DNA of 64,000 nucleotides from Amycolatopsis granulosa (lineage in GTDB: Bacteria; Actinomycetota; Actinomycetes; Mycobacteriales; Pseudonocardiaceae), in contig NZ_JAANOV010000001.1 in NCBI RefSeq assembly GCF_011758745.1, forward strand, positions 372,001 through 436,000. The letters are read 5' to 3'. Below the pieces are notes generated by a model that was not told the origin of the DNA, ran no database searches, and saw only the letters and a list, made by a program, of their open reading frames with translations. Made by a program: the position numbers and the translations under genes. Shown in pieces: positions 22,981-45,996 of the stretch. Position 1 is the stretch's first letter, and each line of letters starts with the position of its first letter.

Positions 22981-22981
22981 C

Positions 22982-24982: not shown

Positions 24983-24998
24983 CACCCGACGATAACCC

Positions 24999-25334
24999 CT
25001 ACCCCTCCGGGTAGAAGAGGAACAGCGTGCAGCCGCTGCTCGTCGCGGGCACGTGCCAGGTACCGGCGGGGGCGTGCAGGAACGTGCCGGCGGGGTAGTC
25101 GCGGGCTCCGTCGTTGAACACGCCCGACACCACGTAGACCTCCTCCGGGCCGGGTTCGTGGACATCGCGGCGGGGCCAGGACGAGCCCGCGTCCATCTCC
25201 AGGATGTTGGCGTGCGCGCCGTTCGTGCCCTTCCACAGTGGACGCAGCCGGATCCCGGGGAACACGTCGACGACGGGTGCTTCACTGACGGAGACGGAGG
25301 TGTAGCCCTCCTGGTCGAGGATTTCGGGATGCAT
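24999..25334 (-). CDS. cupin-domain protein
   Basis: 111-aa single cupin barrel. DVHEPGPEEVYVVSG is motif 1 (His, Glu and a late Glu) and PAGTWHVPATSSG contains the motif 2 His, so a metal site is likely. Resembles ChrR-like anti-sigma cupins or small sensor cupins, but no sigma gene is adjacent. ATG 25334 was chosen; the frame extends upstream, but that extension lies in the promoter area of the divergent GlxA gene. Confidence 0.82.
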   Translation of the reverse strand: MHPEILDQEGYTSVSVSEAPVVDVFPGIRLRPLWKGTNGAHANILEMDAGSSWPRRDVHEPGPEEVYVVSGVFNDGARDYPAGTFLHAPAGTWHVPATSSGCTLFLFYPEG

Positions 25335-25404
25335 AACCACACTGTGGCGCGGCCGGTCCGGCCGTCCCAGCGCCAGGAACGACACGATGGGGTACTTTCT
25401 TGCC

Positions 25405-26355: not shown

Positions 26356-26359
26356 CGCT

Positions 26360-26701
26360 CTACATCCGCTCGTCGCGGGGGAGGTGCGTGCTGTGCGCGT
26401 CGAACGCGCGCTGCCGTTCCCAGTCGCTCAGCAGGAACAGGAACGGACGGCCCGCGCACCGCGGGCACACCGTCGCGCACGCCACGTCGTAGCCGTCCGT
26501 CCGGGAGAACACCGACGTGACCACGCGCAGATCATCGGCGGCACCGCAGCCCTCGCACTGCGTGCCGAGCGGGCAGTCCCGGTGCCCGGCCAGGCTCTCC
26601 CGCGGCGGGTCGAAGGCGAGGTTGTCCAGGTCGTCGGCGTCCTGCCACACCGGACGGTGCTCGCGGAGGCGCCGCAGGCGGCTGCGGAGCTTGGTCACCA
26701 T
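26360..26701 (-). CDS. hypothetical protein with Cys-pair zinc ribbon
   Basis: 113 aa. Central CEGCGAADDLRVV and later CPRCAGRPFLFLL form a CxxC-CxxC zinc-ribbon pattern; basic MVTKLRSRLRRLREHRPVW at the N-terminus. ATG 26701 has GGAAGGGGACGAG upstream. Function unknown; an RNA- or protein-binding accessory role is possible. Convergent with the GlxA gene, 4 bp between stops. Confidence 0.65.
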   Translation of the reverse strand: MVTKLRSRLRRLREHRPVWQDADDLDNLAFDPPRESLAGHRDCPLGTQCEGCGAADDLRVVTSVFSRTDGYDVACATVCPRCAGRPFLFLLSDWERQRAFDAHSTHLPRDERM

Positions 26702-26896
26702 CGCGCTCGTCCCCTTCCCGCCGTCGTCACGTCCGGTCCCATGGTCGACCGGCCGGCGACCGGCGGCGGGCACAACACCCGGCCGTGCCGGCGAAACGAC
26801 CTGACCGGGTGACCGCGGGACCAAATGCTCTGGCCCGGCTCAGGGCCCGTGGCTAGCGTCGGTTGTTCCCTCATCGGCCAACCGCAGGAGGCGGGA

Positions 26897-27286
26897 ATGA
26901 GTGGCAAGATCGTGCACTTCGAGATCCCGTTCGACGACGGCGAGCGCGCTCGTGGCTTCTACCGCGAGGCGTTCGGGTGGAACGTGATGGTGATGCCCGA
27001 GATGGACTACACCATCGTCACCACGGGCCCCACCTCCGAGCAGGGCATGCCCACCGAGCCGGGGTTCATCAACGGCGGCATGTTCACCCGCGCCGAGTCC
27101 GCCCCGAAGAACCCGGTGCTCACGATCGACGTACCCGGCATCGACGCCGCGCTGGAGAAGATCGAACGGCTCGGTGGCTCGAAACTGGTCGGGCGCACCG
27201 AAATCCCGGGCATGGGCTACTACGCGTACTTCACCGACAGCGAGGGCAACGTCCTGGGCCTGTGGGAGAACAAGCCGCAGAGCTAG
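26897..27286 (+). CDS. VOC family protein (glyoxalase-like)
   Basis: 129 aa, one pair of beta-alpha-beta-beta-beta units. IVHFEIPFDDGERARGFYRE and YAYFTDSEGNVLGLWEN are typical of the VOC superfamily, with His near the N-terminus and a C-terminal Glu as possible metal ligands. GCAGGAGGCGGGA precedes the ATG. Its stop shares the CTAG at 27283-27286 with the convergent sigma-factor gene. Substrate unknown. Confidence 0.87.
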   Translation: MSGKIVHFEIPFDDGERARGFYREAFGWNVMVMPEMDYTIVTTGPTSEQGMPTEPGFINGGMFTRAESAPKNPVLTIDVPGIDAALEKIERLGGSKLVGRTEIPGMGYYAYFTDSEGNVLGLWENKPQS

Positions 27287-28431
27287 CCGCGCGCGTTGAG
27301 CCGGGCCGCCTGCCGCACGAGGTGGTCGCGCTCGGCCAGCGTGGGCGCCTGCCGCGCGGCCTCGGCGTAGAGCACGGCCGCCCGGCTCAGGTCGCCGTCC
27401 CGCTCGTGCAGGTACGCGGCCACCGCCGGGTATCGCGGCAGGCCCGGGTCGAGCTGGGCGAGCTCGGCGAGCCCGGCCCGGGCGCCGTCGGCCTCGCCGA
27501 CCGCCACCGCCCGGTTGAGCCGGACGACCGGGCTGCCGGTCAGCCGCACCAGCTCGTCGTACCACTCGACGATCTGCACCCAGTCGGTCTCCGCCGCGGT
27601 CGGAGCGTCGGCGTGCAGGGCCGCGATCGCGGCCTGTGCCTGGAACTCACCCAGCTGATCCCGGGCGAGCGCCGCCTGCAGGATCTCGACACCCTCGGCG
27701 ATCAGGCGTGTGTCCCAGCGGCCGCGGTCCTGCTCGGCCAGCGGCACCAGGCTCCCGTCGGGCGCGGTCCGGCTCGCCCGCCGCGCGTGGTGGAGCAGCA
27801 TGAGAGCGAGCAACCCCGCCACCTCCGGATGGTCGATCACGGCCGCCAGCTGCCGGGTCAGCCGGATCGCCTCGGCCGCGAGGTCGACGTCGCCGGAATA
27901 GCCCTCATTGAACACCAGGTACAGCACCCGCAGCACGGTCGCGACGTCACCCGGCTGGTCGAACCGCACCCGGGACACGGTCCGCTTGGCGCGGCTGATC
28001 CGCTGCGCCATCGTCGCCTCGGGCACCAGGTACGCCTGCGCGATCTGACGGGTGGTGAGCCCGCCGACGGCCCGCAGCGTGAGGGCGACCGCGGACGAGG
28101 GCGTCAGTGACGGGTGCGCGCACAGGAAGTACAGGTGCAGGGTGTCGTCCACCGCGACGTGATCGGGCACCGGCTCGTCGGCGACGGCCTCCTCCCGCCG
28201 CCGTCGCGCGGCCTCCGCCCGGGTGGCGTCCAGGAACTTCCGCCACGCGACGGTGACCAGCCACCCTTTGGGGTCACGTGGCGGGTCGGCCGGCCACACC
28301 CGCAGCGCCTCGACCAGCGCGTCCTGCACGGCGTCCTCGGCGGCCGCGAACTCGGCTCCCCGGCGGACGAGGATCCCGAGCACACCGGGCGTGAGGCTGC
28401 GGAGCAGCGTCTCGTCCCTCGGCGTGGTCAT
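27283..28431 (-). CDS. ECF42-type RNA polymerase sigma factor with TPR-like C-terminus
   Basis: 382 aa, about twice a simple ECF factor. The sigma-2 region includes AEDAVQDALVEALRVWPADP and the sigma-4 region LTLRAVGGLTTRQIAQAYLV. A helical C-terminal extension (about residues 190-382) has repeats such as PAVAAYLHERDGDLSRAAVL. That architecture and the adjacent DGPF gene are the hallmark of the ECF42 group. Start ATG 28431 overlaps the DGPF stop by 4 nt. No anti-sigma gene is present; the extension is thought to replace it in this group. Confidence 0.9.
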   Translation of the reverse strand: MTTPRDETLLRSLTPGVLGILVRRGAEFAAAEDAVQDALVEALRVWPADPPRDPKGWLVTVAWRKFLDATRAEAARRRREEAVADEPVPDHVAVDDTLHLYFLCAHPSLTPSSAVALTLRAVGGLTTRQIAQAYLVPEATMAQRISRAKRTVSRVRFDQPGDVATVLRVLYLVFNEGYSGDVDLAAEAIRLTRQLAAVIDHPEVAGLLALMLLHHARRASRTAPDGSLVPLAEQDRGRWDTRLIAEGVEILQAALARDQLGEFQAQAAIAALHADAPTAAETDWVQIVEWYDELVRLTGSPVVRLNRAVAVGEADGARAGLAELAQLDPGLPRYPAVAAYLHERDGDLSRAAVLYAEAARQAPTLAERDHLVRQAARLNARG

Positions 28432-28835
28432 TCGCCGAGGGTGGGCGGCTCGGTCAGGAGGGGACGCAGTTCGAGCCATTCGTGGATCGGCTTGCCGCCC
28501 GCGCCCGGTGCCGCGGACAGCTCACCGGCCAGTTCGACGGCGCGGTCGTAGCCGTCGACGTCGATCACCATCCAGCCCGCGATGAGGTCCTTGGTCTCGG
28601 CGAACGGGCCGTCGGTGACCGGCGGGCGGCCCTCGCCGTCGTAGCGGACCCAGGTGCCCTCCGGCGCCAGCGCCAGCTCGCCGGCGAACTCGCCGGTCGC
28701 CTCCAGGCGGTCGGCGAAGTCACGCATGTACTGCATGTGCGCGGAGAACTCGTCCCGCGTCCACCGGTCCATCGGCACGTTGTTGACCGGAGCCGGCGCG
28801 CCGCGGTAGTGCTTGAGCAACAGGTACTTGGCCAT
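28428..28835 (-). CDS. DGPF/YCII-related protein
   Basis: 135 aa. Contains TDGPFAETKDLIAGW with the namesake DGPF motif, and FADRLEATGEFAGELAL. These small proteins are the usual partners of ECF42 sigma factors. Here the two genes overlap by 4 nt. It is probably the first gene of the pair and the likely target of the sigma factor (family knowledge). Biochemical role unknown. Confidence 0.9.
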   Translation of the reverse strand: MAKYLLLKHYRGAPAPVNNVPMDRWTRDEFSAHMQYMRDFADRLEATGEFAGELALAPEGTWVRYDGEGRPPVTDGPFAETKDLIAGWMVIDVDGYDRAVELAGELSAAPGAGGKPIHEWLELRPLLTEPPTLGE

Positions 28836-29033
28836 CGTGATCTCCGTGTTCTCCTCGATGCGGCCCGGCCCGGTGGTGGGCCGGTGTCACCGCGGGGACG
28901 GAGCCGGCGGCACGTTCTCGACATCCGCCGGGAGTGGTCCGGATGTTACCCGGGACGGCGACGCGGCACGGGTGTCCGGATCTGACAGAACCCGGTCATT
29001 GCCGCCATCGGCTCCGGCGGTCACGATGGATGC

Positions 29034-30017
29034 ATGAGCCTCACCCGCCGCATCGTGATCGCGGTCTTCCCCGACGTCGACCTCCTCGACGTCACCGGCC
29101 CGGCCGAGGTGTTCGCGCTGGCCAACCGGGAGACCGGGGGCGCCGCGGGCTACCGCGTCCAGCTCGCCGGCCCGGTGGCCGGACCGGTCACCACCTCGGC
29201 CGGGGTGCGGCTGGTCACCGACCTCGCCTTCGCCGAGGTCGACGGCGCGGTCGACACGCTCATCGTGCCCGGCGCGGTGGACCCGCACCCGGACGGGCCG
29301 GTCGCCCGGATCGACCAGGACGTGGTGACCTGGGTGAAGGCCGCCGCCCCACTGGCCCGCCGGGTCGCCTCGGTGTGCGTGGGCGCGCACCTGCTGGCCG
29401 CGGCCGGGCTGCTGGACGGCCGCACCGCGACCACCCACTGGTCCACGGCGGCGCAACTGGCCGCCGACCACCCGTCCGTGCGCGTCGACCCCGATCCGAT
29501 CTTCGTCCGGTCCGGCAACGTGTGGACCGGCGCCGGGATCAGCGCCTGCATGGATCTCGCGCTGGCGCTGGTGACCGAGGACCTGGGGGAGGAGGTCGCC
29601 CTGGCCGTGGCCCGCCAGCTGGTCGTCTACCTCAAACGGCAGGGCGGGCAGAGCCAGTTCTCGGTCCCGCTCAGCCGCCCGCCCTCGGCCCGGCGGGACA
29701 TCGACGAGCTGCGGATGTTCATCGCCGACCACCTGGACGACGACCTGTCCAGCGCGGCGCTCGCTGCCCGCATGTGCCTGAGCGAGCGGCACTTCGCCCG
29801 CGTGTTCCGGCGCGAGACCGGCACCACCCCGGCCGCCTACGTCGAAGCGGCACGGGTGGAGGCGGCTCGCCGCCTGCTGGAGAGCACCGACGAGCCGCTG
29901 GACCGGATCGCCGCGGCCTGCGGGCTGGGCTCGGTGGAAACCCTGCACCGGGCGCTGCGCAAGCAGATCGGCACCACCCCGGCGGCCTACCGCCGCCGCT
30001 TCCGCACCACAGCCTGA
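29034..30017 (+). CDS. GlxA-type AraC regulator (DJ-1/PfpI-AraC fusion)
   Basis: 327 aa. DJ-1-like N-terminal domain with VASVCVGAHLLAAAGLL (Cys at the nucleophile elbow) and ATTHWSTAAQL; C-terminal AraC domain with ALAARMCLSERHFARVFRRE and IAAACGLGSVETLHRALRKQ. It shares architecture and many residues with the protein at 25405. The isochorismatase-like gene at 30101 follows after 83 bp and may be its target. Confidence 0.9.
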   Translation: MSLTRRIVIAVFPDVDLLDVTGPAEVFALANRETGGAAGYRVQLAGPVAGPVTTSAGVRLVTDLAFAEVDGAVDTLIVPGAVDPHPDGPVARIDQDVVTWVKAAAPLARRVASVCVGAHLLAAAGLLDGRTATTHWSTAAQLAADHPSVRVDPDPIFVRSGNVWTGAGISACMDLALALVTEDLGEEVALAVARQLVVYLKRQGGQSQFSVPLSRPPSARRDIDELRMFIADHLDDDLSSAALAARMCLSERHFARVFRRETGTTPAAYVEAARVEAARRLLESTDEPLDRIAAACGLGSVETLHRALRKQIGTTPAAYRRRFRTTA

Positions 30018-30100
30018 ACACCCCTGGTGTTCACCCCCGGGCGCGGCCCCCGCCGCGTCCGTGCTGTCCCGTTTTCCCGCAACCGAACAGGAGTTCCGTC

Positions 30101-30703
30101 ATGCCCGTTTCCGCCACCCTGCGCGAGGTTTCCGGCCTCGGCACCGAGCTGCCGCGCCTCGCCGACGCCACGCTCATCATGATCGACTACCAGAACACCT
30201 ACCGCACCGGTGTGATGACCCTGGAGGGAGCCGAACCCGCCGTCGCCGCCGGTGCCCGGCTGCTCGCCGCCGCCCGCGCCGCCGGCACGCCGGTCGTCCA
30301 CGTCGTCAACGACGGCGGCCCCGGCACCCCGTACGACATCCGGGCCGAGATCGGTGCGATCAGCCCCGAGGTCGCCCCGCTCGACGGGGAACCGGTGGTG
30401 GTCAAGCAGGTCCCCAACGCCTTCCACGACACCACCCTGGAGAAGGTGCTGCGCGACCTGGGCGCCGGCCCGGACCTGGTGCTGGCCGGGTTCATGACCA
30501 ACATGTGCGTTCTGTTCACCGCCCAGGGCGCCTTCAACCTCGGCTACCGGCCGACCGTCGTCGCCGAGGCCAGCGCCACGCGGTCCCTGCCGGCACCCGA
30601 CGGAACGCCGGTGGCCGCCGACGCGCTGCACACCGCGGCGCTGACGACCATCGGCGACCTGTTCGGCACAGTCGCTCCCACGGTGGCCGACCTGACCGCC
30701 TGA
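30101..30703 (+). CDS. isochorismatase-like cysteine hydrolase
   Basis: 200 aa. Catalytic triad regions: LIMIDYQNTY (Asp), VVKQVPNAFHDT (Lys), and AGFMTNMCVLFTAQGA (Cys). Family members hydrolyse amides such as nicotinamide or isochorismate; substrate here unknown. ACAGGAG stands before the ATG. Downstream of, and possibly regulated by, the GlxA-type regulator at 29034. Confidence 0.88.
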   Translation: MPVSATLREVSGLGTELPRLADATLIMIDYQNTYRTGVMTLEGAEPAVAAGARLLAAARAAGTPVVHVVNDGGPGTPYDIRAEIGAISPEVAPLDGEPVVVKQVPNAFHDTTLEKVLRDLGAGPDLVLAGFMTNMCVLFTAQGAFNLGYRPTVVAEASATRSLPAPDGTPVAADALHTAALTTIGDLFGTVAPTVADLTA

Positions 30704-30807
30704 CCGGGCGCCGTGGTGGTGCGGCACCGGGCCGATGCCGCACCACCGCCTGCCGGGCTGCCCCAGTCCCAAGTGGACCCGGTCCCAGGTGCACCCCGCT
30801 GGGGGAA

Positions 30808-31555
30808 TCAGCTGTGCGGTGCCGTTCCGGCCGGATCCTGCCGAGCAGTCGTGTGCTGCTGGTGCGGCGGGAACAGGAAGCACAGCAGGGCGGCGGTCAC
30901 CAGAGCCATGGCGCACACCAGGAACGTGAACTGCATGGCGTGGACGAACCCGGTGGCGAACGTGTCGGCGGCGATGCGTTCGTACAGACCGGCCGTGGCC
31001 GGGTCGAGGCCGCCGGGCGACACGGGCGGACCGAAGTGGTGCGCGGCAGCGGCGCTGTCGCCGATGAACTGCCCGCGCAGATCTTCCGGTAGTTGCGCGG
31101 CGCGCTTCCCGGCCTCGCTGTGCAGGGCCGAGGAGAGGCGGGCCGACAGCAACACGCCCACCACGGCGGTGCCGAGGACGCCACCGATCTGCCGCGTGGT
31201 GCTGGAGACTCCGGACGCCGCCCCGGCGAGCCCGGGGCTGACACCGTCCATAGTGGCCTGCTGCAGCGGGGCGAACGTCGCACCGCTGGCCATCCCGATG
31301 ATGACCAAGCCGGGCAGCAGGCTCCACGCGCTGCTGGTCGGCCTGGTAAGGGGCACCACCAGACCGGTCTAGCGCCGAGGCGATGGTGAAGGTGACGACG
31401 CCGATCACGTACAGCCGCCGGTATCCGAAGACGTCTCCCAGCCACCCGGTCGTGACCAGCAGCACCGAGAAGACGAGCAGGTACCCGTCGATCACCCACA
31501 ACACCTCGTCGGAGGAGGCACCGATACTGCCCATCAGGGTGGGGATGGCGGTGGC
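30808..31555 (-). pseudogene. decayed DHA2-type MFS transporter
   Basis: Two pieces of one transporter gene in different frames. The upstream piece (31555-31373) encodes ATAIPTLMGSIGAS, then VLWVIDGYLLVFSVLLVTTG and DVFGYRRLYVIGVV, that is the first helix's end to helix 3. The downstream piece (31359-30808) encodes LLPGLVIIGMASGATFAPLQ onward, the last helices and tail. Roughly 250 residues between them are missing and the frame shifts at about 31371. The normal N-terminus upstream of the first piece is also gone. Confidence 0.85.
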
Positions 31556-31785
31556 GTGGCGGATCGTTCGGCGGATTTGCGTTCCGGCATTCCGGAGACC
31601 TCCCTGCGGGAGCCGTCTGCGGGGTGGTGACCGCGATCAGGCCGCCGGCGCAGCACACGGTCCGGGGCAGAGCCGCCGGAGCGCGGAGAGAACCACACGA
31701 GTGCATGCGCGTCACCACCCAGCTCCCTTGGCGGTCATCGATCACCGCCAGCGCCTGTGGCCCCGATCTTCAACACGGCACGTTC

Positions 31786-31824
31786 CTCTCCTCGGATGGG
31801 CAGCGGGTTCCCATCCGAGGAGAG
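31786..31824. repeat. perfect 15-bp inverted repeat
   Basis: CTCTCCTCGGATGGG (31786-31800) and CCCATCCGAGGAGAG (31810-31824) form a perfect stem with a 9-nt loop. It lies in the otherwise gene-free stretch 31556-31936 between the MFS relic and the tetR stop, 112 bp downstream of tetR. It may be a tetR terminator or an element end. No gene is seen in the rest of that stretch. Confidence 0.6.
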
Positions 31825-31936
31825 TTGGCCACCCCTGAGGGCGGTGAGCCGCTACTGCGCCCTGACCCTGGGGCCCTGATGGTTCCGCGCGCACAGCAAG
31901 GGGCTTCGGGTGGGACGCGGCGGCGGTCCGAGGGTT

Positions 31937-32515
31937 TCAGTCCAGCAGGGCGCGCAGCGCCAGGTCGGCGATCTGCCGCAGCTCGTCGTGGCTGCGGCCA
32001 GCTGCCGCCTGGACGGCGATGCCGTCGGAGATCGTCTGGACGAGGGCCGCCAGGGCGGCCGGTTCATAGCGGGAGGGCAGATCCGTGGCCCGCTCCAGCC
32101 GCCTGCGCAGCGCTGCCTCACCCGCCTTCCGCACCGCGATGGCGTCTTGGCGCACGGTGTGCGCTTCGGGGCCGCGGGCGTGCACGCTGCTGACGCACAG
32201 GCAGCCCTGGGGCGTGTTCTGGCCCGCGGTCAGGCCCACGGCTCCGTGGATCAGCTGCTTGACGACCTCACGGCCGGTCGGCGCGTCCAGGGCGTCGGCA
32301 GTGTAGGCGCCGGGGCCGTCGAGGTAGCGGGCCAGGACCTTGGCGAACAGCTCCTCCTTGTTGCCGAAGGCGGCGTAGAGGCTGGGCTTGTTGATGCCCA
32401 TCGCGGCGGTCAGGTCGGTGAGCGAAGTGCCCTCGTAGCCGTGCTGCCAGAACACCTCCAGCGCGCGGTCGAGCGCGGCGTCGGCGTCGAACGAGCGTGG
32501 ACGTCCGCCGGGCAT
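31937..32515 (-). CDS. TetR/AcrR family repressor
   Basis: 192 aa. HTH region TDLTAAMGINKPSLYAAFGN, then KEELFAKVLARYL. ATG 32515 has GGGAGGA 5 nt before it; an upstream in-frame ATG at 32533 is less well placed. Divergent from the Gfo/Idh/MocA gene at 32631, with two TACC-N4-GGTA palindromes between them, so it probably represses both. Confidence 0.9.
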   Translation of the reverse strand: MPGGRPRSFDADAALDRALEVFWQHGYEGTSLTDLTAAMGINKPSLYAAFGNKEELFAKVLARYLDGPGAYTADALDAPTGREVVKQLIHGAVGLTAGQNTPQGCLCVSSVHARGPEAHTVRQDAIAVRKAGEAALRRRLERATDLPSRYEPAALAALVQTISDGIAVQAAAGRSHDELRQIADLALRALLD

Positions 32516-32547
32516 GCCGTCCTCCCTGATCATGGAACGAGTTTTAT

Positions 32548-32611
32548 ACCTATCGGTAGATTACCTCTTGCGCCCGCATCCCGCGCTGCTTTAGTTTCAT
32601 ACCGAAGGGTA
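32548..32611. promoter_or_regulatory. paired TACC-N4-GGTA operators
   Basis: Two 12-bp inverted repeats of identical design, TACC-TATC-GGTA at 32548-32559 and TACC-GAAG-GGTA at 32600-32611, lie 52 bp apart between the divergent tetR and oxidoreductase genes in an AT-rich stretch. Each is placed to block one promoter. Confidence 0.65.
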
Positions 32612-32630
32612 CATAATTAAGGGGTGTCAC

Positions 32631-33710
32631 ATGATCCGAGTCGGAGTTGTCGGGGCCAGCGGTTGGGCGGACGGCTCGCACCTGCCCGCACTCGCTGCGC
32701 TTGAAGCCTTCGAGGTGACCGCGGTCGCGACCACCAATCAGGCCAGCGCGGACCGGGCGGCCGCAGCGCATGGCGTCCGGCACGCCTTCGCCGACGCGGG
32801 TGAGCTCGTGGCGCACCCCGAGGTCGACCTGGTCGTCGTCTCGGTGAAGGCATCCGGACATGCCGCTGTGATCAAGGCCGCGCTCAAGGCCGGCAAGCAC
32901 GTCGTGTCCGAGTGGCCGTTGGGTGTCGACGCCGACCAAGCGAGCGAGCTGGCCGAGGCCGCCGCGACCGCTGGCGTCGTCCACGCGGTCGTCCTCCAGG
33001 GGCACCACTCGCCGAGCGCCCGCTTCGCCGCCGACCTCCTGGCCGCTGGCCGGATCGGCACGCTCGAATCGGTCGCGCTGGTGGCGGAGGGCGCACCCTG
33101 GGGCGGCAGTCAAATCTCGCCGGAACTGGTGTTCGGCCTCGACCCCTCGGAGGGAACCAACATCCTGACCATCATGGCCGGTCACTTCCTGGCCACGCTC
33201 GAACGGGTCGCGGGCCCCTTGGCCGAGGTCTCGGCACGGCTGCCCCGGACGCACGACCACGTGCTGGTCTCCGGCACGGAGCGCACCGTACCCAATGCCA
33301 CATCCAGCCACGTGCTGGTACACGGGTTGCTGGCCGGCGGCGCGACCGCATCCATCGCCGTGCACGGCGGCAACGGTCCCATCCAGGATGCGTTCCTGCT
33401 CAAGCTCGTCGGCAGTGACGCAACGCTGACCGCCACCCCGGCCCGGCCCGGGACGTACATTCACTGGGGCGACTGGGACATCAGAATCGGAGATGACGTC
33501 CTAGCCCTGCCCGGCACCTACCGCACCGTCCCCGCCGGCGTCCGGTCCGGCCCACCGGCCAACATCGCGGCCCTCTACCAGGAGGTCGCCCGGGCCATCG
33601 CCGAAGACCGGCAGCCACACCCCAGTTTCGAGACTGCGCTGCGCCACCACCGGCTCCTTGCCGCCATCGAACGCTCCGCGGCGGAGGGAATCGCCTCGAA
33701 AATCTCCTAA
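32631..33710 (+). CDS. Gfo/Idh/MocA family oxidoreductase
   Basis: 359 aa NAD(P)-dependent sugar or inositol-type dehydrogenase. The Rossmann start IRVGVVGASGWADGSHLPAL, the AGKHVVSEWPLG box with Glu/Trp-Pro in place of the common EKP, and a C-terminal alpha/beta domain are visible. Loss of the EKP lysine (E-W-P here) could alter catalysis. Divergent from the TetR gene; substrate unknown. AAGGGG precedes the ATG. Confidence 0.87.
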   Translation: MIRVGVVGASGWADGSHLPALAALEAFEVTAVATTNQASADRAAAAHGVRHAFADAGELVAHPEVDLVVVSVKASGHAAVIKAALKAGKHVVSEWPLGVDADQASELAEAAATAGVVHAVVLQGHHSPSARFAADLLAAGRIGTLESVALVAEGAPWGGSQISPELVFGLDPSEGTNILTIMAGHFLATLERVAGPLAEVSARLPRTHDHVLVSGTERTVPNATSSHVLVHGLLAGGATASIAVHGGNGPIQDAFLLKLVGSDATLTATPARPGTYIHWGDWDIRIGDDVLALPGTYRTVPAGVRSGPPANIAALYQEVARAIAEDRQPHPSFETALRHHRLLAAIERSAAEGIASKIS

Positions 33711-33729
33711 CTCGCCCGGCACCGGCGAG
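33711..33729 (+). terminator. short hairpin after oxidoreductase
   Basis: CTCGCC (33711-33716) and GGCGAG (33724-33729) form a 6-bp stem directly after the stop codon. No U-tract. The following 253 bp to the CGNR stop hold no gene that I can support. Confidence 0.45.
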
Positions 33730-33982
33730 GGCGGCTGTGCCCGGTCCGGGGCATTCACGTTCGTGGGTGGCGAGGCGGAATGCCCGAGGGTCACAAGCCG
33801 GGCACAGCCCGACACTCCGGCCGGACTCCGTCGTCGCGGTCAGCGTTCCGCGGGCCGTGGTGACCGCTCGTGGAGCCCGGTGCGGGGGAGACCCAGCTGA
33901 GCGGTGACCCCACGGGCGGGCGTCCAACGGCCGTGGTCTGCTCCTGCTGGCCTCCGGCGCCGCCCCTACCCGGGCACGATGC

Positions 33983-34558: not shown

Positions 34559-35299
34559 ATGGTGTCGATCTCCCGGGAAGCGGGCGCCCAGACCGAAGCC
34601 CGGCTGCGCGGGGTGTTCCGCACGTCCGCCATCGAGTGGCTGGACGGAGCGTGGACCTTCGTCGAAGGCGCCGACGCGGCCCGTCGCGCGGACGCGATCG
34701 CGCTCATCCGCGACGAGGGGCGGCCGAGCGCCCTCTGTCCGGCCACCGGCGTCGGGGAGCGGTTCGCCGTGTTCCGCGTGGTGCTCCCACGCGGTGCCGA
34801 CGACAGCGGGTTCGTCGGCTGGCTGGCGTCCCGGGTCAAGGCGTCGACCGGGAGCGGGTTGTTCGTGATCTGCGGGCAGGACAGCGACCGTGGCGGGATC
34901 TTCGACTACTACGGGGTTCCCGAACCCGCGGCTGGGGAGGTCCGGCAGGTGCTCGATCGCCTGTCGCGCACCGAGGGCCTCGACGGCGTCGTGTTGCGCA
35001 CCGTGGCGACGGCGGACAACTCCGCCCTGGGCCCGGAGACCGTGTTCTGCTTCGAGCAGCGCGATGACGCGATCACCGCGCGCTACGGCGGCGGCGGTAT
35101 CACCGACGGCTGGCTGGCCGGCACCGTCGACGGCGCACAGGTCCGGTTCCACTACCTGCAGGTGCAGGCCGACGGAACCGTCGACAGCGGCCGGTCGGCG
35201 GGCGAGGTGACCCGGCTGCCCGACGGGCGGTGGAGCCTCACCGAACACTTCACGTGGGCGAGCCGGAAGGGCAGCGGCACCAACCGCTTCGAGGAGTAG
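34559..35299 (+). CDS. two-domain hypothetical protein (DUF6196-like plus NAGS-like small domain)
   Basis: 246 aa. The N-terminal part (about 1-145, MVSISREAGAQTEARLRGVF) resembles small DUF6196-like proteins. The C-terminal part (about 150-246) with GPETVFCFEQRDDAITARYG, VRFHYLQVQADGTVDSGRS and WSLTEHFTWASRKG matches a family of about 100-aa proteins often mislabelled N-acetylglutamate synthase. Both usually occur alone, so this looks like a fusion. Assignments rest on remembered family patterns. Divergent from the CGNR regulator. Its stop is 12 bp from the dif-like site. Confidence 0.75.
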   Translation: MVSISREAGAQTEARLRGVFRTSAIEWLDGAWTFVEGADAARRADAIALIRDEGRPSALCPATGVGERFAVFRVVLPRGADDSGFVGWLASRVKASTGSGLFVICGQDSDRGGIFDYYGVPEPAAGEVRQVLDRLSRTEGLDGVVLRTVATADNSALGPETVFCFEQRDDAITARYGGGGITDGWLAGTVDGAQVRFHYLQVQADGTVDSGRSAGEVTRLPDGRWSLTEHFTWASRKGSGTNRFEE

Positions 35300-35310: not shown

Positions 35311-35338
35311 ACTTGACATAATGTGCATTATCGGCGCA
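35311..35338. other. dif: candidate dif site (chromosome-dimer resolution)
   Basis: On the minus strand this reads as an XerC-side arm TGCGCCGATAA, a 6-bp centre TGCACA and an XerD-side arm TTATGTCAAGT. The 11-6-11 layout and the XerD arm closely match the known bacterial dif pattern (E. coli XerD arm TTATGTTAAAT, XerC arm ending GCATAA). It is intergenic, 12 bp after a stop codon, in a sharp local AT-rich patch. If real it marks the replication terminus and the XerCD/FtsK target. Comparison is from memory of published dif sequences. Confidence 0.8.

Positions 35339-35608: not shown

Positions 35609-35609
<1 letters not shown>
35564..35609 (-). terminator. tandem palindromes ending uvrA2
   Basis: Immediately after the uvrA2 stop comes a perfect 18-bp palindrome AAACGTCACGTGACGTTT (35592-35609), overlapping a second perfect stem of GTTTTCCGGGTGGCC (35564-35578) with its complement (35581-35595). 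They probably terminate uvrA2 transcription. The palindrome could also bind protein. The rest of 35339-35563 holds no gene that I can support. Confidence 0.65.
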
Positions 35610-37993
<2,384 letters not shown>

Positions 37994-38054
37994 CGGGACT
38001 CCCTGTCAGGTCGGGCGCTGGTGGCGGCGGGCGGGCCACCACCAGCGTCGCGGG

Positions 38055-38462
38055 TCAGCGCAGTTCCTGGATGCGGATCATGTTGCCCGCCGGGTCGCGG
38101 AAGGCGCAGTCGCGCACCCCGTAGGGCTGCTCGGTCGGCTCCTGGACGACCTCGGCGTCGGTGGCCTGCAGCCGCTCGAAGGTGCCGTCGAGGTCCTTGG
38201 AGGCGAGCAGCAGCGAGCCGAAGGTGCCCTTGGCCATCATCTCGGTGATGGCCTTGCGTTCGTCGTCGGTCAGGCCGGGTGTGGCTTCCGGCGGGTACAG
38301 CACGATGGAGGTGTTCTGGCCGGGCGGGCCGACGGTGATCCAGTGCATGCCGTTGAAGCCGACGTCGTTGCGCACCTCGAAGCCGAGGACGTCGCGGTAG
38401 AAGGCGATGGCGGTGTCGTGGTCGTTGTGCGGCAGGAAGCTCGAGTGAATGGTGATGTCCAT
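38055..38462 (-). CDS. VOC family protein
   Basis: 135 aa. [20 protein letters not shown] and [19 protein letters not shown] are typical of glyoxalase/bleomycin-resistance-like VOC proteins. ATG 38462. Ten bp after the AraC gene and 61 bp before uvrA2, all on the minus strand, so one operon is likely. Next to a UvrA2 it could bind or modify a DNA-damaging compound (inference). Confidence 0.87.
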
Positions 38463-38472
38463 ACCGGTCACA

Positions 38473-38916
38473 CTATTTCCGGGCGGGCGGCCACGCTTCT
38501 CGATTCCTGATCGGTCTGGTGACCTGCTTCGCGACGCACGGGGGCATGCCGGCGGTGGCGTTCGCGGCCTGGGCGCGGTAGGCGCTGGGTGGCATGCCGA
38601 CCAGCTCGGTGAAGCGGGTGCTGAAGGTGCCCAGGGACGAGGAGCCGACGGCGAAGCAGACCTCGGTGACACTCAGGTCGCCGCGGCGCAGCAGTGCCAT
38701 GGCCCGTTCGATGCGGCGGGTCATCAGGTAGGAGTAGGGCGACTCGCCGAAGGCCCGTTTGAACTCCCGGCTGAGGTGCCCGGCGGACATGTTCACGCCG
38801 CGGGCGAGCGCTTCGACGTCCAGCGGCTGCGCGTACTCCCGGTCGATGCGGTCGCGCACGCGGCGCAGCAGGGCGAGGTCGCGCAGCCGCGCTGCTCCGG
38901 CGGAACTAGCGGTCAC
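38473..38916 (-). CDS. AraC family transcriptional regulator, short
   Basis: 147 aa, essentially only the two HTH motifs: LDVEALARGVNMSAGHLSRE followed by FKRAFGESPYSYLMTRRI, and VTEVCFAVGSSSLGTFSTRF. A short basic tail follows. GTG 38916 (VTASS) is preferred over the upstream ATG at 38973. As a SoxS/MarA-sized activator it probably controls its own operon with the VOC and uvrA2 genes. Confidence 0.85.
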   Translation of the reverse strand: MTASSAGAARLRDLALLRRVRDRIDREYAQPLDVEALARGVNMSAGHLSREFKRAFGESPYSYLMTRRIERAMALLRRGDLSVTEVCFAVGSSSLGTFSTRFTELVGMPPSAYRAQAANATAGMPPCVAKQVTRPIRNREAWPPARK

Positions 38917-39007
38917 CCGCGGAATCGTGCCACACCGGTCGCCGCGGCGGCACGGGTTCGCGGCAACCACCACCCCGCGCTACCCGCCGTGACGGCCGGC
39001 GCCGGGG

Positions 39008-39385
39008 TCAGCGCAGCCGTTCCAGCTCGCGGGCGGCCTCGGCCAGTTCGAGGGCCATCCGGCGGAGCTCGCCGCCGTCGGCTCCGTCGTCGGCGGCGGT
39101 GACCACGTCCTCGGCGGCGCAGCGCAGCTGGAACAGGCGGTCCTGCAGTGCGGTCAGCTCGGCGTCGGACAGCACGACGGCGTTCTCGGGCAGCCCACCG
39201 CGCTGGACGGCGAGGCGCCGTTCATAGGCTCGCTGCCGGCAGGACTGGCCGCAGTAGCGCCGCCGCCGGCCGGTGCTCCCCTGCTCGATCCGCCGGCCAC
39301 ACCACCCGCAGTGCAGGACGGCGGCCTGCCGCCGGTGCGGCGGCACGTCACGGGACGTCGCGACCTGGTCCACCTGTGCGCTCAC
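39008..39385 (-). CDS. small zinc-finger protein, function unknown
   Basis: 125 aa from GTG 39385. CGWCGRRI and RRRRYCGQSCRQRAYERRLA form a CxxC-x17-C-x3-C zinc-finger seen in many uncharacterised actinobacterial proteins. The C-terminal half is helical (LSDAELTALQDRLFQLRCAA). Likely nucleic-acid binding. Divergent from the phosphodiesterase gene at 39452. Confidence 0.75.
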   Translation of the reverse strand: MSAQVDQVATSRDVPPHRRQAAVLHCGWCGRRIEQGSTGRRRRYCGQSCRQRAYERRLAVQRGGLPENAVVLSDAELTALQDRLFQLRCAAEDVVTAADDGADGGELRRMALELAEAARELERLR

Positions 39386-39451
39386 GCAGCAGACCCTAAC
39401 CGGCCACCCCGAACTCATGCCGCGGCCACGCCGATACCGCAGACTGGTGGG

Positions 39452-40237
39452 GTGCAGATCAACCACCCGTACCTGAGCGGCACCCGGCCTCGCGCGTTCG
39501 CCCACCGCGGGTGGCACCTGGACGACCTCGACGGGCTGGAGAACTCACTGCCGTCCTTCCAGCGCGCGGCCGCCGAGGGCTACGCCTACGTGGAGACCGA
39601 CGTGCACACCACCGCCGACGGCGTGGTCGTGGTGCACCACGACGCCCTGCTCGACCGCACCACCGACCGGCACGGTCCGATCGCCAAGCAGACGTGGTCG
39701 GCGGTGCGGCAGGCCAAGATCGGTGGCCGCACCCCGGTGCCCCGGCTGGAGGACGTGCTGGAAGAACTCCCCGAGATCCGGTTCAACATCGACGTCAAGA
39801 CCAGCCGGGCGATCGTGCCGTTCGTGCGCGCCATCGAGCGGATGGGCGCCTTCGACCGGGTCGCGGCGGCGGCGTTCTCCGATGCGCGGCTGGCGGCGAT
39901 CCGCAAGCTGGCCGGCCCGAAGCTGATCACGTCGATGGGCCCGCGGTCGGCCGCGGTGCTGTGGGCCCGCGGCTGGCTGCCGTGGGTGCGACGGGACTTC
40001 CGGCAGCGGGGTGAGATGGCCCAGGTGCCGTCCCGGCAGGGCGCGATGACGGTCATCGACACCAGGTTCGTGCGCAGCGCCGAGCGCGCCGGTGCCGAGG
40101 TGCACGCGTGGACGATCAACAACCGGGCTCACATGGAACGGCTGCTCGACCTGGGCGTGCACGGCATCGTGACCGACCGGCCGGACGTGCTGCGCGAGGT
40201 GCTGGCCGCGCGGGGCGCGTGGCCGCCCGCCAAGTAG
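39452..40237 (+). CDS. glycerophosphodiester phosphodiesterase family protein
   Basis: 261 aa TIM barrel. RAFAHRGWHLDDLDGLENSL holds the catalytic HR and Glu; YVETDVHTTADGVVVVHHD holds ExD and the second His. C-terminal VHAWTINNRAHMERLLDLGV and GIVTDRPDVL are typical. There is no signal peptide, so cytosolic. Hydrolyses glycerophosphodiesters to glycerol-3-phosphate. GTG start at 39452; its ribosome binding site is weak. Confidence 0.9.
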   Translation: MQINHPYLSGTRPRAFAHRGWHLDDLDGLENSLPSFQRAAAEGYAYVETDVHTTADGVVVVHHDALLDRTTDRHGPIAKQTWSAVRQAKIGGRTPVPRLEDVLEELPEIRFNIDVKTSRAIVPFVRAIERMGAFDRVAAAAFSDARLAAIRKLAGPKLITSMGPRSAAVLWARGWLPWVRRDFRQRGEMAQVPSRQGAMTVIDTRFVRSAERAGAEVHAWTINNRAHMERLLDLGVHGIVTDRPDVLREVLAARGAWPPAK

Positions 40238-40246
40238 CGGCGGCCG

Positions 40247-40930
40247 TCACCGCGGCCGGGTGCCCGACCAGGCGGCTTTCCACGTCTTGGGGCCCAGGCG
40301 CCCGGAGTCGTTGATGCCGTTGGCGCGTTGCAGGTCGAGCACGGCCTGGCGGGTCTTGTCGTAGTAGCAGCCGGTGCCGGTGAAGCCGTAGCCGAAGGCG
40401 TTCATGCGCAGCTGGAAGACCTTCAGTGCCTCGGCGCAGTCGCCGTAGGCGTAGACGACGCCGGGCCAGGCGGGCACCGCGACGGGCACTGCGACGGGCG
40501 CCGGGGCCGGGGCGTGGCCGCCGCCGATGTAGGCGCTCTCGGCGTAGGTGGGCACCCGCTTGCTGCGGGCGTCCTTGTCCTCGCGCAGGCCGAGCATGCC
40601 GGCGCACTCCCAGGGCTGCCAGCCGCGCATCCGGTAGAGGTACAGCGCGCGGTAGTCCTGCTCGACGGGGGCGGCGAGGTCGGGGCGGCCCTGGCCGCCG
40701 ACGCTGCGCCAGGTGGGCAGGTCGAACTGGTAGGCGCCGTAGTAGCCGTTGCCGGTGTTTGTCGTGTAGCGGTTGCTGGATTCGCACATGCGCAGCTTCA
40801 GCCAGGTCGCGGCGCTCGGGTCGGCGCCCGCGGGTGTGGCGGCGACCAGCTCGGCACCCAGTGCCAGGAGCACCGCGAGCACGAGTCCGGCTCCCCCGCG
40901 GGCCGAGGGTCTCCATCGGTGCCTGCTCAT
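40247..40930 (-). CDS. Rpf-like transglycosylase with C-terminal peptidoglycan-binding motif
   Basis: Secreted cell-wall hydrolase, 227 aa. A basic N-terminus and hydrophobic LVLAVLLALGAELVAATPAGA form a signal peptide. The Rpf/transglycosylase-like domain (about 40-115) has MCESSNRYTTNTGNGYYGAY with the catalytic Glu. After an Ala/Pro/Val linker, the C-terminal repeat FQLRMNAFGYGFTGTGCYYD and VLDLQRANGIN resemble a peptidoglycan-binding fold. Roles in growth restart and wall turnover are known for the family. ATG 40930. Confidence 0.85.
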   Translation of the reverse strand: MSRHRWRPSARGGAGLVLAVLLALGAELVAATPAGADPSAATWLKLRMCESSNRYTTNTGNGYYGAYQFDLPTWRSVGGQGRPDLAAPVEQDYRALYLYRMRGWQPWECAGMLGLREDKDARSKRVPTYAESAYIGGGHAPAPAPVAVPVAVPAWPGVVYAYGDCAEALKVFQLRMNAFGYGFTGTGCYYDKTRQAVLDLQRANGINDSGRLGPKTWKAAWSGTRPR

Positions 40931-40959
40931 GCCCGCACAGTAAGTTCGCACCTCATTGA

Positions 40960-40973
40960 TCACAACTTTCACA
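40960..40973 (-). promoter_or_regulatory. TGTGA direct repeat upstream of the Rpf-like gene
   Basis: On the minus strand TGTGA occurs at 40973-40969 and 40964-40960, a 9-bp repeat 30-43 bp before the start codon, in the AT-richest part of the leader. rpf genes are often under MtrA or Crp control; this could be such a site, but the match to either consensus is incomplete. Confidence 0.35.
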
Positions 40974-41159
40974 GCAAACCCAGCAGAATCACATGTACCA
41001 CCCACCGGCGGCTGCCGCGACACGCTGGCGGACCTGCGGGAGATGCGGGAGAACCGGACAGATCGCACTACTCCCCCGTGATCGGTAGCCGTGGCTGGAC
41101 CTGCGCTGTTTTCACCCGATCAAGGGAGCTCCGGACGTGGCTGGATAGGGTCGTCCGTC

Positions 41160-41915
41160 GTGACCACCCTTGGTGATTCCGACCCGGACCCGACCGACGC
41201 CCTGTCCCCACTGCCCTCGCGCAACGCGACGGGCACGCCGGTGCGGGGCAGGCTGCGGTTCTGCTACGGCCCGATGGACTGCGGGAAGTCCACGCTGGCG
41301 CTGCAGATCGACCACAACCACGCGCGGCAGGGACGGCGCGGGTTGCTGCTGGTGCGCCACGACCGCTCGGGTGAGCCGCGGATCAGCAGCCGGATCGGGA
41401 TCACGCGCCGGGCGACCGAGGTGGGCGAGGACACCGACCTGCGTCAGCTGATCCGCCATCAGTGGGTCGCCGGGCGGCACCTGGACTACCTGATCGTGGA
41501 CGAGGCGCAGTTCCTGTCCGCGGCGCAGGTCGAGCAGCTGGCCGAGCTGGCGGACGAGGTGGCGCTGGACGTGTACTGCTTCGGCATCGCCACCGATTTC
41601 CGCAGCCGGCTGTTCCCCGGGGCGCGGCGGTTGTTCGAACTGGCCGACGAGCTGCAGCCGGTGCAGGTGGAGGTGCTGTGCTGGTGTGGCGCGCCGGGCC
41701 GGTTCAACGCCCGGGTGGCCGGCGGTGAGGTCCTCCGCGAGGGGGACACGGTGGCCGTCGCCGATACCTTTTCGGGGGTAGTTGAAAAGACAAATTCGCC
41801 ACCCTCGGATACGGAACCGGCTACTATCCGTTATCAAGTACTATGTCGCCGCCATTTCCGGCTGGGCGATCTGGGGCCGGCAGCAGCCCGGCACGGGCAG
41901 CTGCGGCTGACCTGA
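41160..41915 (+). CDS. thymidine kinase, TK1-like
   Basis: About 251 aa. P-loop GPMDCGKSTLALQ, VDEAQFLSAAQVEQL with the DEAQF motif, and YCFGIATDFRSRLFPGARRL (lasso and thymidine site) define the family. One zinc pair CWCGAPGRFN is present and the late Cys lies in LCRRHF. The frame is open upstream to 41091; GTG 41160 is chosen. The 3' portion 41761-41850 has AT-ending codons unlike the rest of the gene. Salvages thymidine to dTMP. Confidence 0.87.
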   Translation: MTTLGDSDPDPTDALSPLPSRNATGTPVRGRLRFCYGPMDCGKSTLALQIDHNHARQGRRGLLLVRHDRSGEPRISSRIGITRRATEVGEDTDLRQLIRHQWVAGRHLDYLIVDEAQFLSAAQVEQLAELADEVALDVYCFGIATDFRSRLFPGARRLFELADELQPVQVEVLCWCGAPGRFNARVAGGEVLREGDTVAVADTFSGVVEKTNSPPSDTEPATIRYQVLCRRHFRLGDLGPAAARHGQLRLT

Positions 41916-42059
41916 ACGGCTCAGCCGCTCCCCCGCATGGGGGAATATGCCCAGAAGAACGCGCCATCCGCGTCACGTCGCGCCGCGAATCCCCTCCCAA
42001 CAGAGGAAGCTGTTGCCGAGGGGTGAGCCAGCTCATCGTGAGCGACGACATGGTGCGAT

Positions 42060-42086
42060 GGGAATTCCCAGTTGCCAGAATCCGTT
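42060..42086 (+). promoter_or_regulatory. sigma-R-type promoter for rbpA
   Basis: GGGAAT (42060-42065), 18 bp, then GTT (42084-42086): an exact fit to the GGGAAT-N18-GTT promoter class used by SigR/SigH in actinobacteria. Transcription would start around 42093 and give a leader of about 50 nt to rbpA. The rest of 41916-42143 shows no gene. Confidence 0.75.
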
Positions 42087-42143
42087 GCATAGGGTGAGCA
42101 TCACCCTGGCTCTAGACCCGGAGCCGACTGAAAGGACGTCATC

Positions 42144-42491
42144 ATGGCCGACCGTGTTCTCCGTGGAAGCCGGCTGGGAGCGGTCAGCTACGAGACCGAC
42201 CGCAATCACGATCTGGCCCCGCGCCGTACGGTGCGGTACGCGTGTCCGAAGAACCACGAGTTCGAGGTGCCCTTCTCCGACGACGCCGAGATCCCCTCGG
42301 TGTGGGAGTGCCGCCTGCACGGCAGCGAGTCCGAGATCGTCGATGGCGCGCAGCCCGAGCAGAAGAAGGTCAAGCCGCCGCGTACGCACTGGGACATGCT
42401 GCTCGAGCGGCGGAGCATTCCCGAGCTCGAGGAACTGCTGAACGAGCGTCTCGCTGAGCTGAAGGGACGGCGTACGTCGAAGTCGGCGTAA
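42144..42491 (+). CDS. rbpA: RNA polymerase-binding protein RbpA
   Basis: 115 aa. Binds RNA polymerase and group 1/2 sigma factors, stabilises the open complex and contributes to rifampicin tolerance in actinobacteria. The N-terminal tail GSRLGAVSYETDRN, core VRYACPKNHEFEVPF and WECRLHG (zinc-type Cys pairs), and C-terminal sigma-interaction domain THWDMLLERRSIPELEELLN are complete. AAAGGA before ATG 42144. Behind a sigma-R-type promoter and followed by a strong terminator, so monocistronic. Confidence 0.97.
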   Translation: MADRVLRGSRLGAVSYETDRNHDLAPRRTVRYACPKNHEFEVPFSDDAEIPSVWECRLHGSESEIVDGAQPEQKKVKPPRTHWDMLLERRSIPELEELLNERLAELKGRRTSKSA

Positions 42492-42512
42492 CGCTTCGAC
42501 CCTCCCACGACC

Positions 42513-42547
42513 GAAGGCCCCCGTGTCCTCCCGCCACGGGGGCCTTC
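42513..42547 (+). terminator. rbpA terminator
   Basis: Perfect 13-bp stem GAAGGCCCCCGTG (42513-42525) with CACGGGGGCCTTC (42535-42547) and a 9-nt loop, 21 bp after the rbpA stop. Confidence 0.85.
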
Positions 42548-42755
42548 CGCTGTCCGCGGGCGGCCTCCCGGCGCCTACGGTCGCGTGCTCAGCCGCTGCC
42601 GGGTCGTGGCGGTGGCGATCCCGGGGGTTGACGAGCATCGGAACGAAATCGGCGCTGGCGGACCGATGGGGCTGACGTGGCCGATGCGTGGGGTCTGATC
42701 AATCTTCAGTTCGGTGCGGTAGTGCGCGGTCCAACCCGAACGAGCTCACAGCCAT

Positions 42756-43370
42756 TCAGCGTTCGCCCCTCAGAAGCCTGGTCAGCGCCGCGACATCCTG
42801 GATTGCCGACGCCCGTATGCCTGTTTCGACCACGAGCGTGGGTACGCCACGGATGCCGCGTTCGTCAGCTCGGCGTTCGTCAGCGCGGACGGCGTCGGCG
42901 AACGCGTCGCTGTGCAGGAGTTTGCCGGTCTGCGTGGGATCCAGTCCGGCTTCGGTGGCAAGGGTCTGCAGCACATCGGGGTCGGCGATGTTGCGTCCTT
43001 CGGTGTGATAGCCGTGCATGAGTCGTTCGAGGACTTGATCGGCCAGGCCGCACGAGGCAGCCAGCTGGACCAGCCGATGGGCGTCGAAGGAGTTGACCGG
43101 CCTGGCCTTGTCCAGATTCAGCGTCAGGCCCTCGGCGGCGCCCAGGACCTGGATCCGGGCGACGCGGGCGGCGGCCTGCGCGCGGTCGGGCTGGTGGGCG
43201 CTGATGACTTCGGCCGCTGTTGGCCCGGGAACCGACGAGCCCTCCGGGTCGAGCTCGCGGCTGCGCCAGAGGAGCTCGGCTCCGGGAGCGCCGCGCAGTG
43301 CAGCGGTGAGCCGTCGCTTTCCGATGTAGCACCAGGGACACAAGACATCGAAGTAGACCTCGGCTCGCAT
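42756..43370 (-). CDS. DsbA family oxidoreductase, FrnE-like
   Basis: 204 aa thioredoxin-fold protein without signal peptide, so cytosolic. VYFDVLCPWCYIGKRRL carries the CPWC active site, and RGVPTLVVETGI the cis-Pro loop. FrnE proteins isomerise or reduce thiol compounds and are induced by stress. ATG 43370 has GGGAG 8 nt upstream; ATG 43388, overlapping the MFS stop (ATGA), is the alternative. Third gene of the TetR-controlled operon starting at 45911. Confidence 0.9.
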   Translation of the reverse strand: MRAEVYFDVLCPWCYIGKRRLTAALRGAPGAELLWRSRELDPEGSSVPGPTAAEVISAHQPDRAQAAARVARIQVLGAAEGLTLNLDKARPVNSFDAHRLVQLAASCGLADQVLERLMHGYHTEGRNIADPDVLQTLATEAGLDPTQTGKLLHSDAFADAVRADERRADERGIRGVPTLVVETGIRASAIQDVAALTRLLRGER

Positions 43371-43384
43371 TGACGGTGCTCCCT

Positions 43385-44926
43385 TCATTCGGTGTGGGCG
43401 GAAGGGGTCCCGTCCCGCTGCGCGGGTTCGCGGCAGAACGTGATGGTCAGGATGGCGAGGACCGCCAGGAGCGGGATGAGGATGATCGCGTGAATGTGCA
43501 GGCTGTGCGCGAAGGCGTCCCGAGCGGCCTCGGTCAACGTGACGCCTAGCTCATGGGGAAGACGGCTCGCCACCTCCAGTGCGGCCGGCAGCGTTTCGCG
43601 GGCGGTCGTCACGATGTCGGTGGGGACGTCCGCGGGCAGGTGCTCGGTCAGGTGACGCCCGTAGACGGCGGTGGCCACACTGCCCAGCACGGCGATGCCG
43701 AGAGCACCGCCGAGTTCCGCGCCGGTCTCGGAGATCGCCGACGCGGCTCCGGCGCGTTCGGGCGGCGCGGAGTTCAAGATCAGGCCGCTTCCCAGGGACA
43801 TGAACGGCGTCAGCCCGGCGAACAGCACGACCGAGCCGCCCACCAGGACCAGCGGGCCCCGGTTCACCTGGGTGAGCAGGACCGGGCCGAGGATCGCCAG
43901 GGCCGCTCCGGCGCTCATCAGCACGGCGGGCCGGAAACGTACGGCGAGGCCGGAGACCACCAGAGCAGTCACGGTGCTGAACACCGCCGAGGGCAGTTGC
44001 CACAATCCGGCCTGCAGGGGGCTGAAGCCGAGGACCAGTTGCAGGTACTGCGAGGTGAGCAGGCTCGTCCCGAACAGCAGGAACCCCACCAGCGTCATGC
44101 CACCGGCCGCCACGGCGAAGGCGGGCACGTGGAAGAGACCGAGATCCAGGAACGGGACGGACAGCTGCCGCTGGCGGCGTGCGAAGAACACTCCCGCCAG
44201 CACCCCCACCGCCAGCGTGCCGAGACCCGGCAGGCTCAAGCCCTGCACGGCGAGCTCCTTGATCGCGTACACGGCCACCAGCGGCGTCACCAGTGACAGC
44301 GCGACGCTGGCGGCGTCCGGCCGTGCCGCGCCGGAGCGGGGTGTCTCGGGCAGCAGGAACGGTGCGCAGACCAGCAGTACCACCATGGTCGGGACGGCGG
44401 TCAGGAACATCGAGCCCCACCAGAAGTACTCCAGGAGCACTCCGCCGATCAGCGGGCCGAGCGCCCCGCCGCCCATGAAGCTCAGCATCCAGATCGTGAT
44501 GGCGAGGGTGCGCTGCCGCTCATCGCGGAACATCGTGCGAATCAGCGACAGCGAGGAGGGTGCCAGGCATGCGGCGGCGATCCCCTGAACGGCGCGCGCC
44601 GCGACGAGCCATGCGGCTCCGGGCGCGAAGGCGGCCAGGACCGAGGCGATGGTGAAGGCCACCGCGCCGGCCACCAGGACACGGCGGTGTCCGAGCCGGT
44701 CGCCGAGTGTTCCCAGGGTGACGAGGAAACCGGCGACCATGAAGCCGTAGACATCGATGATCCACAGCAGTTGCGGGCCCGTCGGGTCCAGGTCCGCGCT
44801 GAGGCCGGGCAGTGCCAGGTAAAGCATCGACATGTTCATCATGACCAGCACGGCCGGAACGCCCAGTACGGCTAGTGCGATCCATTCACGGCGCCCGGCG
44901 GTGGCCGTCGGCTGAGGAGCGGGCAC
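43385..44926 (-). CDS. MFS drug-efflux transporter, DHA2 (EmrB/QacA)
   Basis: 513 aa with about 14 hydrophobic segments. VLVMMNMSMLYLALPGLSAD opens helix 1, GDRLGHRRVLVAGA is motif A, and FMGGGALGPLIGGVLLEYF is the helix 5 antiporter motif. GTG 44926 starts 2 bp after the MDR stop. Second gene of the leftward operon MDR-MFS-FrnE divergent from a TetR gene. Likely exports a compound sensed by that TetR. Confidence 0.9.
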   Translation of the reverse strand: MPAPQPTATAGRREWIALAVLGVPAVLVMMNMSMLYLALPGLSADLDPTGPQLLWIIDVYGFMVAGFLVTLGTLGDRLGHRRVLVAGAVAFTIASVLAAFAPGAAWLVAARAVQGIAAACLAPSSLSLIRTMFRDERQRTLAITIWMLSFMGGGALGPLIGGVLLEYFWWGSMFLTAVPTMVVLLVCAPFLLPETPRSGAARPDAASVALSLVTPLVAVYAIKELAVQGLSLPGLGTLAVGVLAGVFFARRQRQLSVPFLDLGLFHVPAFAVAAGGMTLVGFLLFGTSLLTSQYLQLVLGFSPLQAGLWQLPSAVFSTVTALVVSGLAVRFRPAVLMSAGAALAILGPVLLTQVNRGPLVLVGGSVVLFAGLTPFMSLGSGLILNSAPPERAGAASAISETGAELGGALGIAVLGSVATAVYGRHLTEHLPADVPTDIVTTARETLPAALEVASRLPHELGVTLTEAARDAFAHSLHIHAIILIPLLAVLAILTITFCREPAQRDGTPSAHTE

Positions 44927-44927
44927 G

Positions 44928-45911: not shown

Positions 45912-45920
45912 GAGTCCTCC

Positions 45921-45978: not shown

Positions 45979-45996
45979 GAGCGCTAGACTGGCGCC

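Follow-up and report, generated by a model that had tools for sequence, protein, structure and literature searches.

In E. coli, FtsK loaded by polar motifs moves to dif and activates XerD, and XerD together with XerC resolves dimers (PMC5357621; here and below, papers cited by accession are cited from the part of their text available to us). For the Actinobacteria, the available part of a 2011 survey (PMC3025954) records no experimentally confirmed dif sequence at that time; it also gives a suggested dif for Frankia alni. In Corynebacterium aurimucosum (PMC2830990) and C. ulcerans (PMC3164646), dif was located with architecture-imparting sequences. A literature search on Pseudonocardia, dif site and replication terminus found no paper, and PMC2587704, which came from a search on dif in Streptomyces, linear and circular chromosomes and XerC, makes no mention of dif in the part available.

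The 28-mer described in this work, almost certainly a dif site, can be set against each of these systems. It has 26 of its 28 bases in common with the suggested F. alni dif, including the same centre and XerD-side arm; the first two bases are TG here and CA in F. alni (PMC3025954). With E. coli dif it shares the 11-6-11 layout and the terminus position, and in both genomes polar motifs on the leading strand increase toward the site, whereas the XerC-side arm differs and so does the polar motif, KOPS being GGGNAGGG in E. coli (PMC5357621). As in the two Corynebacterium species, the octamers G(A/T/C)GGGGGA and (T/C)GGGGGAG reverse their polarity at a 28-bp site some 180 degrees away from oriC (PMC2830990, PMC3164646). 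The differences from those species are that the flip here can be narrowed to 2 kb and that, within 500 kb, every sampled copy of GGGGGAG is oriented the right way. We computed the sequence, uniqueness and position of the 28-mer, the conservation of its 28 bp between diverged flanks, the motif flip, and candidate genes for three proteins.

The 28-mer and its place on the chromosome

The window, that is, the whole stretch of 64,000 nucleotides analysed, covers C1:372001-436000 of a single-contig genome of 5,623,989 bases, and the 28-mer lies at 407,311-407,338 of this contig (C1). On the minus strand, from window position 35338 down to 35311, it reads TGCGCCGATAA TGCACA TTATGTCAAGT: two 11-bp arms and a 6-bp centre, as in dif-type anatomy (Table 1). 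The initial annotation had proposed this XerCD-type structure, and all 28 bases were found where it placed them. It put the XerD-side arm two positions off that of E. coli; TTATGTCAAGT shows two differences from TTATGTTAAAT, the arm of the gamma-proteobacterial consensus (PMC5993296). The 28-mer is not the lone AT-rich patch it was taken for, since 22 clusters in the window (its own counted) reach its 16 A/T per 28-mer.

Table 1. Features on either side of the 28-mer, in window coordinates
Feature	Position	Strand	Basis or remark
Predicted dif site, 28 bp, TGCGCCGATAATGCACATTATGTCAAGT	35311..35338	-	unique in genome within 3 mismatches; core in 110/120 family genomes (own included)
Presumed XerC-side arm TGCGCCGATAA	35328..35338	-	sequence; side by analogy with E. 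coli dif
6-bp central region TGCACA	35322..35327	-	sequence
Presumed XerD-side arm TTATGTCAAGT	35311..35321	-	sequence; 2/11 differ from gamma-proteobacterial consensus arm
ORF, DUF6196 protein	34559..35299	+	ends before the predicted dif site; neighbour only
UvrA-like ABC ATPase gene	35609..37993	-	convergent neighbour, other side of the predicted dif site
rbpA	42153..42464	+	about 7 kb from the predicted dif site
Eight GGGGGAG (starts 7821, 9582, 14341, 14527, 23884, 26377, 29585, 33884)	7821..33890	+	pointing to the predicted dif site
Nine GGGGGAG (starts 35888, 40891, 41071, 41928, 47837, 48947, 51183, 53842, 57378)	35888..57384	-	pointing to the predicted dif site

A 24-base actinobacterial core pattern, compared with the F. 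alni sequence printed in PMC3025954, has its sole match in the window at the 28-mer site when up to three mismatches are allowed; at the same setting it matched none of 100 dinucleotide shuffles. Across 42 related sites, the second and third bases of the central TGCACA are variable. The invariant columns of the core in this set are partly so by construction, because the sites were pulled by a pattern fixing most of the core, and eight among them were collected by exact match.

The full 28-mer has one copy in the genome at up to three mismatches (5,623,989 bp scanned), which is the single copy per chromosome of a dif site, and the reversed 28-mer, used as a control, has no match in the whole genome at that setting. 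The initial annotation had named several copies, or a better dif match elsewhere, as evidence against its reading. As there is no second copy within three mismatches, the genome offers neither at that setting. A Pfam domain match places dnaA at 3,261,725-3,262,210, so that the 28-mer and dnaA are 0.508 of the circle apart. In 80 sampled bins of 20 kb, GC skew is positive in 31 of the 40 bins of one replichore and negative in 28 of the 40 bins of the other, and both the two-level changepoint and the maximum of cumulative skew fall at 440 kb. The 28-mer is about 33 kb (0.6% of the circle) from this sampled switch, in agreement with the earlier expectation of a copy at the skew switch opposite dnaA. 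We rejected GC skew alone as a terminus locator: it is too coarse, the bootstrap 5-95% range of the switch being 420-600.5 kb, a span of 180 kb. The sampled DNA comprised 80 stretches of 20 kb and the window, with two 10-kb gaps left between 160 and 640 kb.

The unique copy, its place opposite dnaA and its closeness to the skew switch all fit the original proposal of a candidate dif site and terminus, as does the flip of GGGGGAG described below. Its sequence and surroundings make it almost certain that the 28-mer serves as dif on a circular actinomycete chromosome, and the location of the replication terminus in the window is supported. Clear-cut but ordinary, the site belongs to a well-known class and is in itself what the field would expect; the geometry that supports it is unusually clean. 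Through it, several lines of evidence pin the terminus of replication down to 28 bp of this chromosome, and tests of Xer recombination in actinomycetes have a ready substrate.

Conservation in relatives

When the 22-base core was sought at up to two mismatches in 120 genomes of the family (own included), exactly one match was found in 110 and the reversed control matched in none of the 120. A looser pattern, with much noise (it matched 28 times, and its reversed control 9 times), gave what looks like a diverged dif in 4 of the 10 genomes without a core match (G050, G082, G102 and G071) and nothing convincing in the remaining 6. At the level of the class, 304 of 394 genomes (own included) match the core at up to two mismatches and 90 are without a match.

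The distance from dnaA was compared as well. Among the 109 relatives with a match, dnaA was searched in the 36 that have the site on contig C1, and six (G017, G019, G069, G077, G095 and G112) were left out of the geometry, their assemblies being in several pieces or the two loci on different contigs. In the 30 relatives and our own genome, 0.505 +/- 0.033 of the circle separates the site from dnaA, the genome sizes of the relatives being rounded to 0.1 Mb, and in 28 of the 31 it falls within 0.05 of the point opposite dnaA; the exceptions are G003 (0.649), G042 (0.553) and G052 (0.555). The orientation of the site relative to dnaA was discarded as a signal, as it is not conserved (20 of 31 the same, 11 opposite).

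In four genus-mates, identity over the 28 bp is 0.89-1.00 and falls to 0.22-0.39 in the flanks (ungapped, 100 bp per side); the 28 bp have thus been kept as a unit independent of their neighbours. The identical 28-mer is found, again with different flanks, in eight named records, from Frankia (2), Blastococcus, Streptomonospora, Microterricola, Homoserinimonas (2) and a Microbacteriaceae bacterium.

Some genomes in these surveys stand apart. G003, where the site misses the point opposite dnaA by 0.149 of the circle, is the only strong outlier among the 31. The class survey found a match in 117 of 138 genera, and genus g71 (family f21) lacks the pattern in all 39 of its genomes (hand count; 5.8-11 Mb, listed as 100% complete); one might guess that these have linear chromosomes of the Streptomyces kind. 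The same survey gave several dif-like matches per genome in G384, G197 and G399 (two each) and G477 (three), and the extra ones could reflect a second replicon, an integrated element, chance or assembly effects.

Polarity of the GGGGGAG motif

Hendrickson and Lawrence, in 2006, are reportedly the source of the architecture-imparting motif. GGGGGAG forms the core of the actinobacterial architecture-imparting sequences (AIMS) already described (PMC2830990). When 6- to 8-mers were counted in the 80 bins, it ranked first among heptamers for leading-strand bias, with 215 of 231 copies, a count that is partly circular because the motif was chosen on the same sampled DNA with the 28-mer and dnaA as boundaries. 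The fine position of the flip, the loci of relatives and the published octamers are more independent.

Within 500 kb, all 116 sampled copies of GGGGGAG are directed at the 28-mer (22+21+37+21+15 by distance class). All 93 copies sampled between 160 and 640 kb are consistent with one polarity switch at 405,884-407,888, and this 2-kb interval contains the 28-mer. The density of the motif is 2.20 per 10 kb within 50 kb of the site, against 0.55 beyond 2 Mb. GGGGGAG thus has the leading-strand excess, the flip of polarity and the rise in density near the site by which motifs of the AIMS/KOPS type are recognised. The window has no excess of it (17 copies, where shuffles average 22.7), and its signal there is polarity, not frequency. 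Of 1,130 heptamers that occur 60-140 times in the zone from 160 to 640 kb, the runners-up, CGGGGGA and GGGGAGC, overlap GGGGGAG and make 11.8% and 18.2% errors, and the best heptamer without overlap, GCAAGGC, makes 25%. For the published octamers, 151 of 162 copies in that zone point toward the 28-mer and the best switch is unchanged; over all the sampled DNA the figure is 362 of 403.

The pattern extends to other genomes. At 42 of their dif loci, which played no part in the choice of GGGGGAG and were gathered with a core pattern that admits one further base choice, the motif is directed toward the site in 137 of 139 copies: 32/32 in the four genus-mates, 43/44 in the eight named records and 62/63 in thirty family loci, the motif being present in 25 of these. 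Other G-rich heptamers fall short of this in the same 42 loci, with GAGGGGG (the letters of GGGGGAG backwards) toward the site in 7 of 28 copies, GGGGGTG in 17 of 66, GGGGGCG in 29 of 78, AGGGGGG in 3 of 8, GGAGGGG in 30 of 51 and GGGGAGG in 51 of 66; the polarity is therefore particular to GGGGGAG. By analogy with known systems, GGGGGAG is probably the FtsK loading sequence in actinomycetes, unlike the KOPS of E. coli, and its flip would mark dif within about 2 kb. If true, dif could be mapped in actinomycetes, and made functionally testable, from polarity alone. Neither our literature searches nor the available parts of PMC13277299 and PMC11898615 showed a proven actinobacterial FtsK loading motif.

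Alternative explanations

Elements that use the host XerCD carry dif-like sites (PMC5357621), and an integrase-type tyrosine recombinase is present at the left end of the window. One might therefore ask whether an IMEX, a plasmid or a phage using the host XerC and XerD left the 28-mer behind as its attachment or resolution site. We consider this very unlikely. The 28-mer is single within three mismatches, so that there is no flanking second site at that setting, and the genes on either side of it match ordinary families. In relatives, too, there is just one site of this kind, close to the terminus, and the four whose flanks were compared have unrelated sequence there. On both arms, the sampled polar motifs point to the 28-mer.

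The position just behind a stop codon, the partly palindromic sequence and the 22 clusters of equally AT-rich 28-mers in the window would all be in keeping with a chance AT-rich spacer, an operator or a terminator between genes. Such an origin is extremely improbable given that no shuffle of 100 matched the actinobacterial core, that the 28 bp are conserved as a unit between diverged flanks in four genus-mates, and that the same 28 bases occur with other flanks in the eight named actinomycete records.

Candidate recombination genes and proposed mechanism

If the 28-mer is dif, the proteins to act on it appear to be at hand, as the genome encodes candidates for XerC, XerD and an FtsK with a gamma domain. 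A 308-aa protein passes the NCBI XerD model (352.1 bits against a cut-off of 329.6). XerC is the best NCBI model for a 330-aa protein, which nevertheless scores 319.9 bits, below the cut-off of 335.15. In the 830-aa FtsK candidate, the Pfam motor, alpha and gamma domains are all over their cut-offs, and its score of 441.9 on NCBI's 1355-position FtsK model is far below the cut-off of 1566. Elsewhere in the genome, four other integrase-type matches score 61.8-107.5 bits, and three that are short score 26.9-30.2 bits.

In the mechanism that we propose, Xer binding, the sequence in which strands are exchanged, the activating role of FtsK and its recognition of GGGGGAG are carried over from known Xer/dif systems. 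When sister chromosomes fuse into a dimer, septal FtsK would be loaded by polar G-rich motifs, most likely GGGGGAG, and would pump the DNA of both arms toward dif. There its gamma domain would switch on XerD. With two dif copies aligned, strands would be exchanged across the 6-bp centre first by XerD and then by XerC, which would turn the dimer into two monomers before cell division.

Genes around the site

The preceding ORF ends at 35299, which leaves a gap of 11 bp to the 28-mer and not the 12 bp given in the initial annotation. On the other side, the UvrA-like protein is short (794 aa), its 694.1 bits falling below the NCBI UvrA cut-off of 729.8, and it is probably a UvrA paralogue. The gene rbpA, named earlier as a neighbour, is indeed present in the window, and a distant locus, C1:5558179-5558490, holds the second of the two RbpA-family matches in the genome. 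The integrase-type tyrosine recombinase, a 382-aa frame with a match to Pfam Phage_integrase, occupies window positions 1-423 and runs off the left end (C1:371869-372423), about 35 kb from the predicted dif site.
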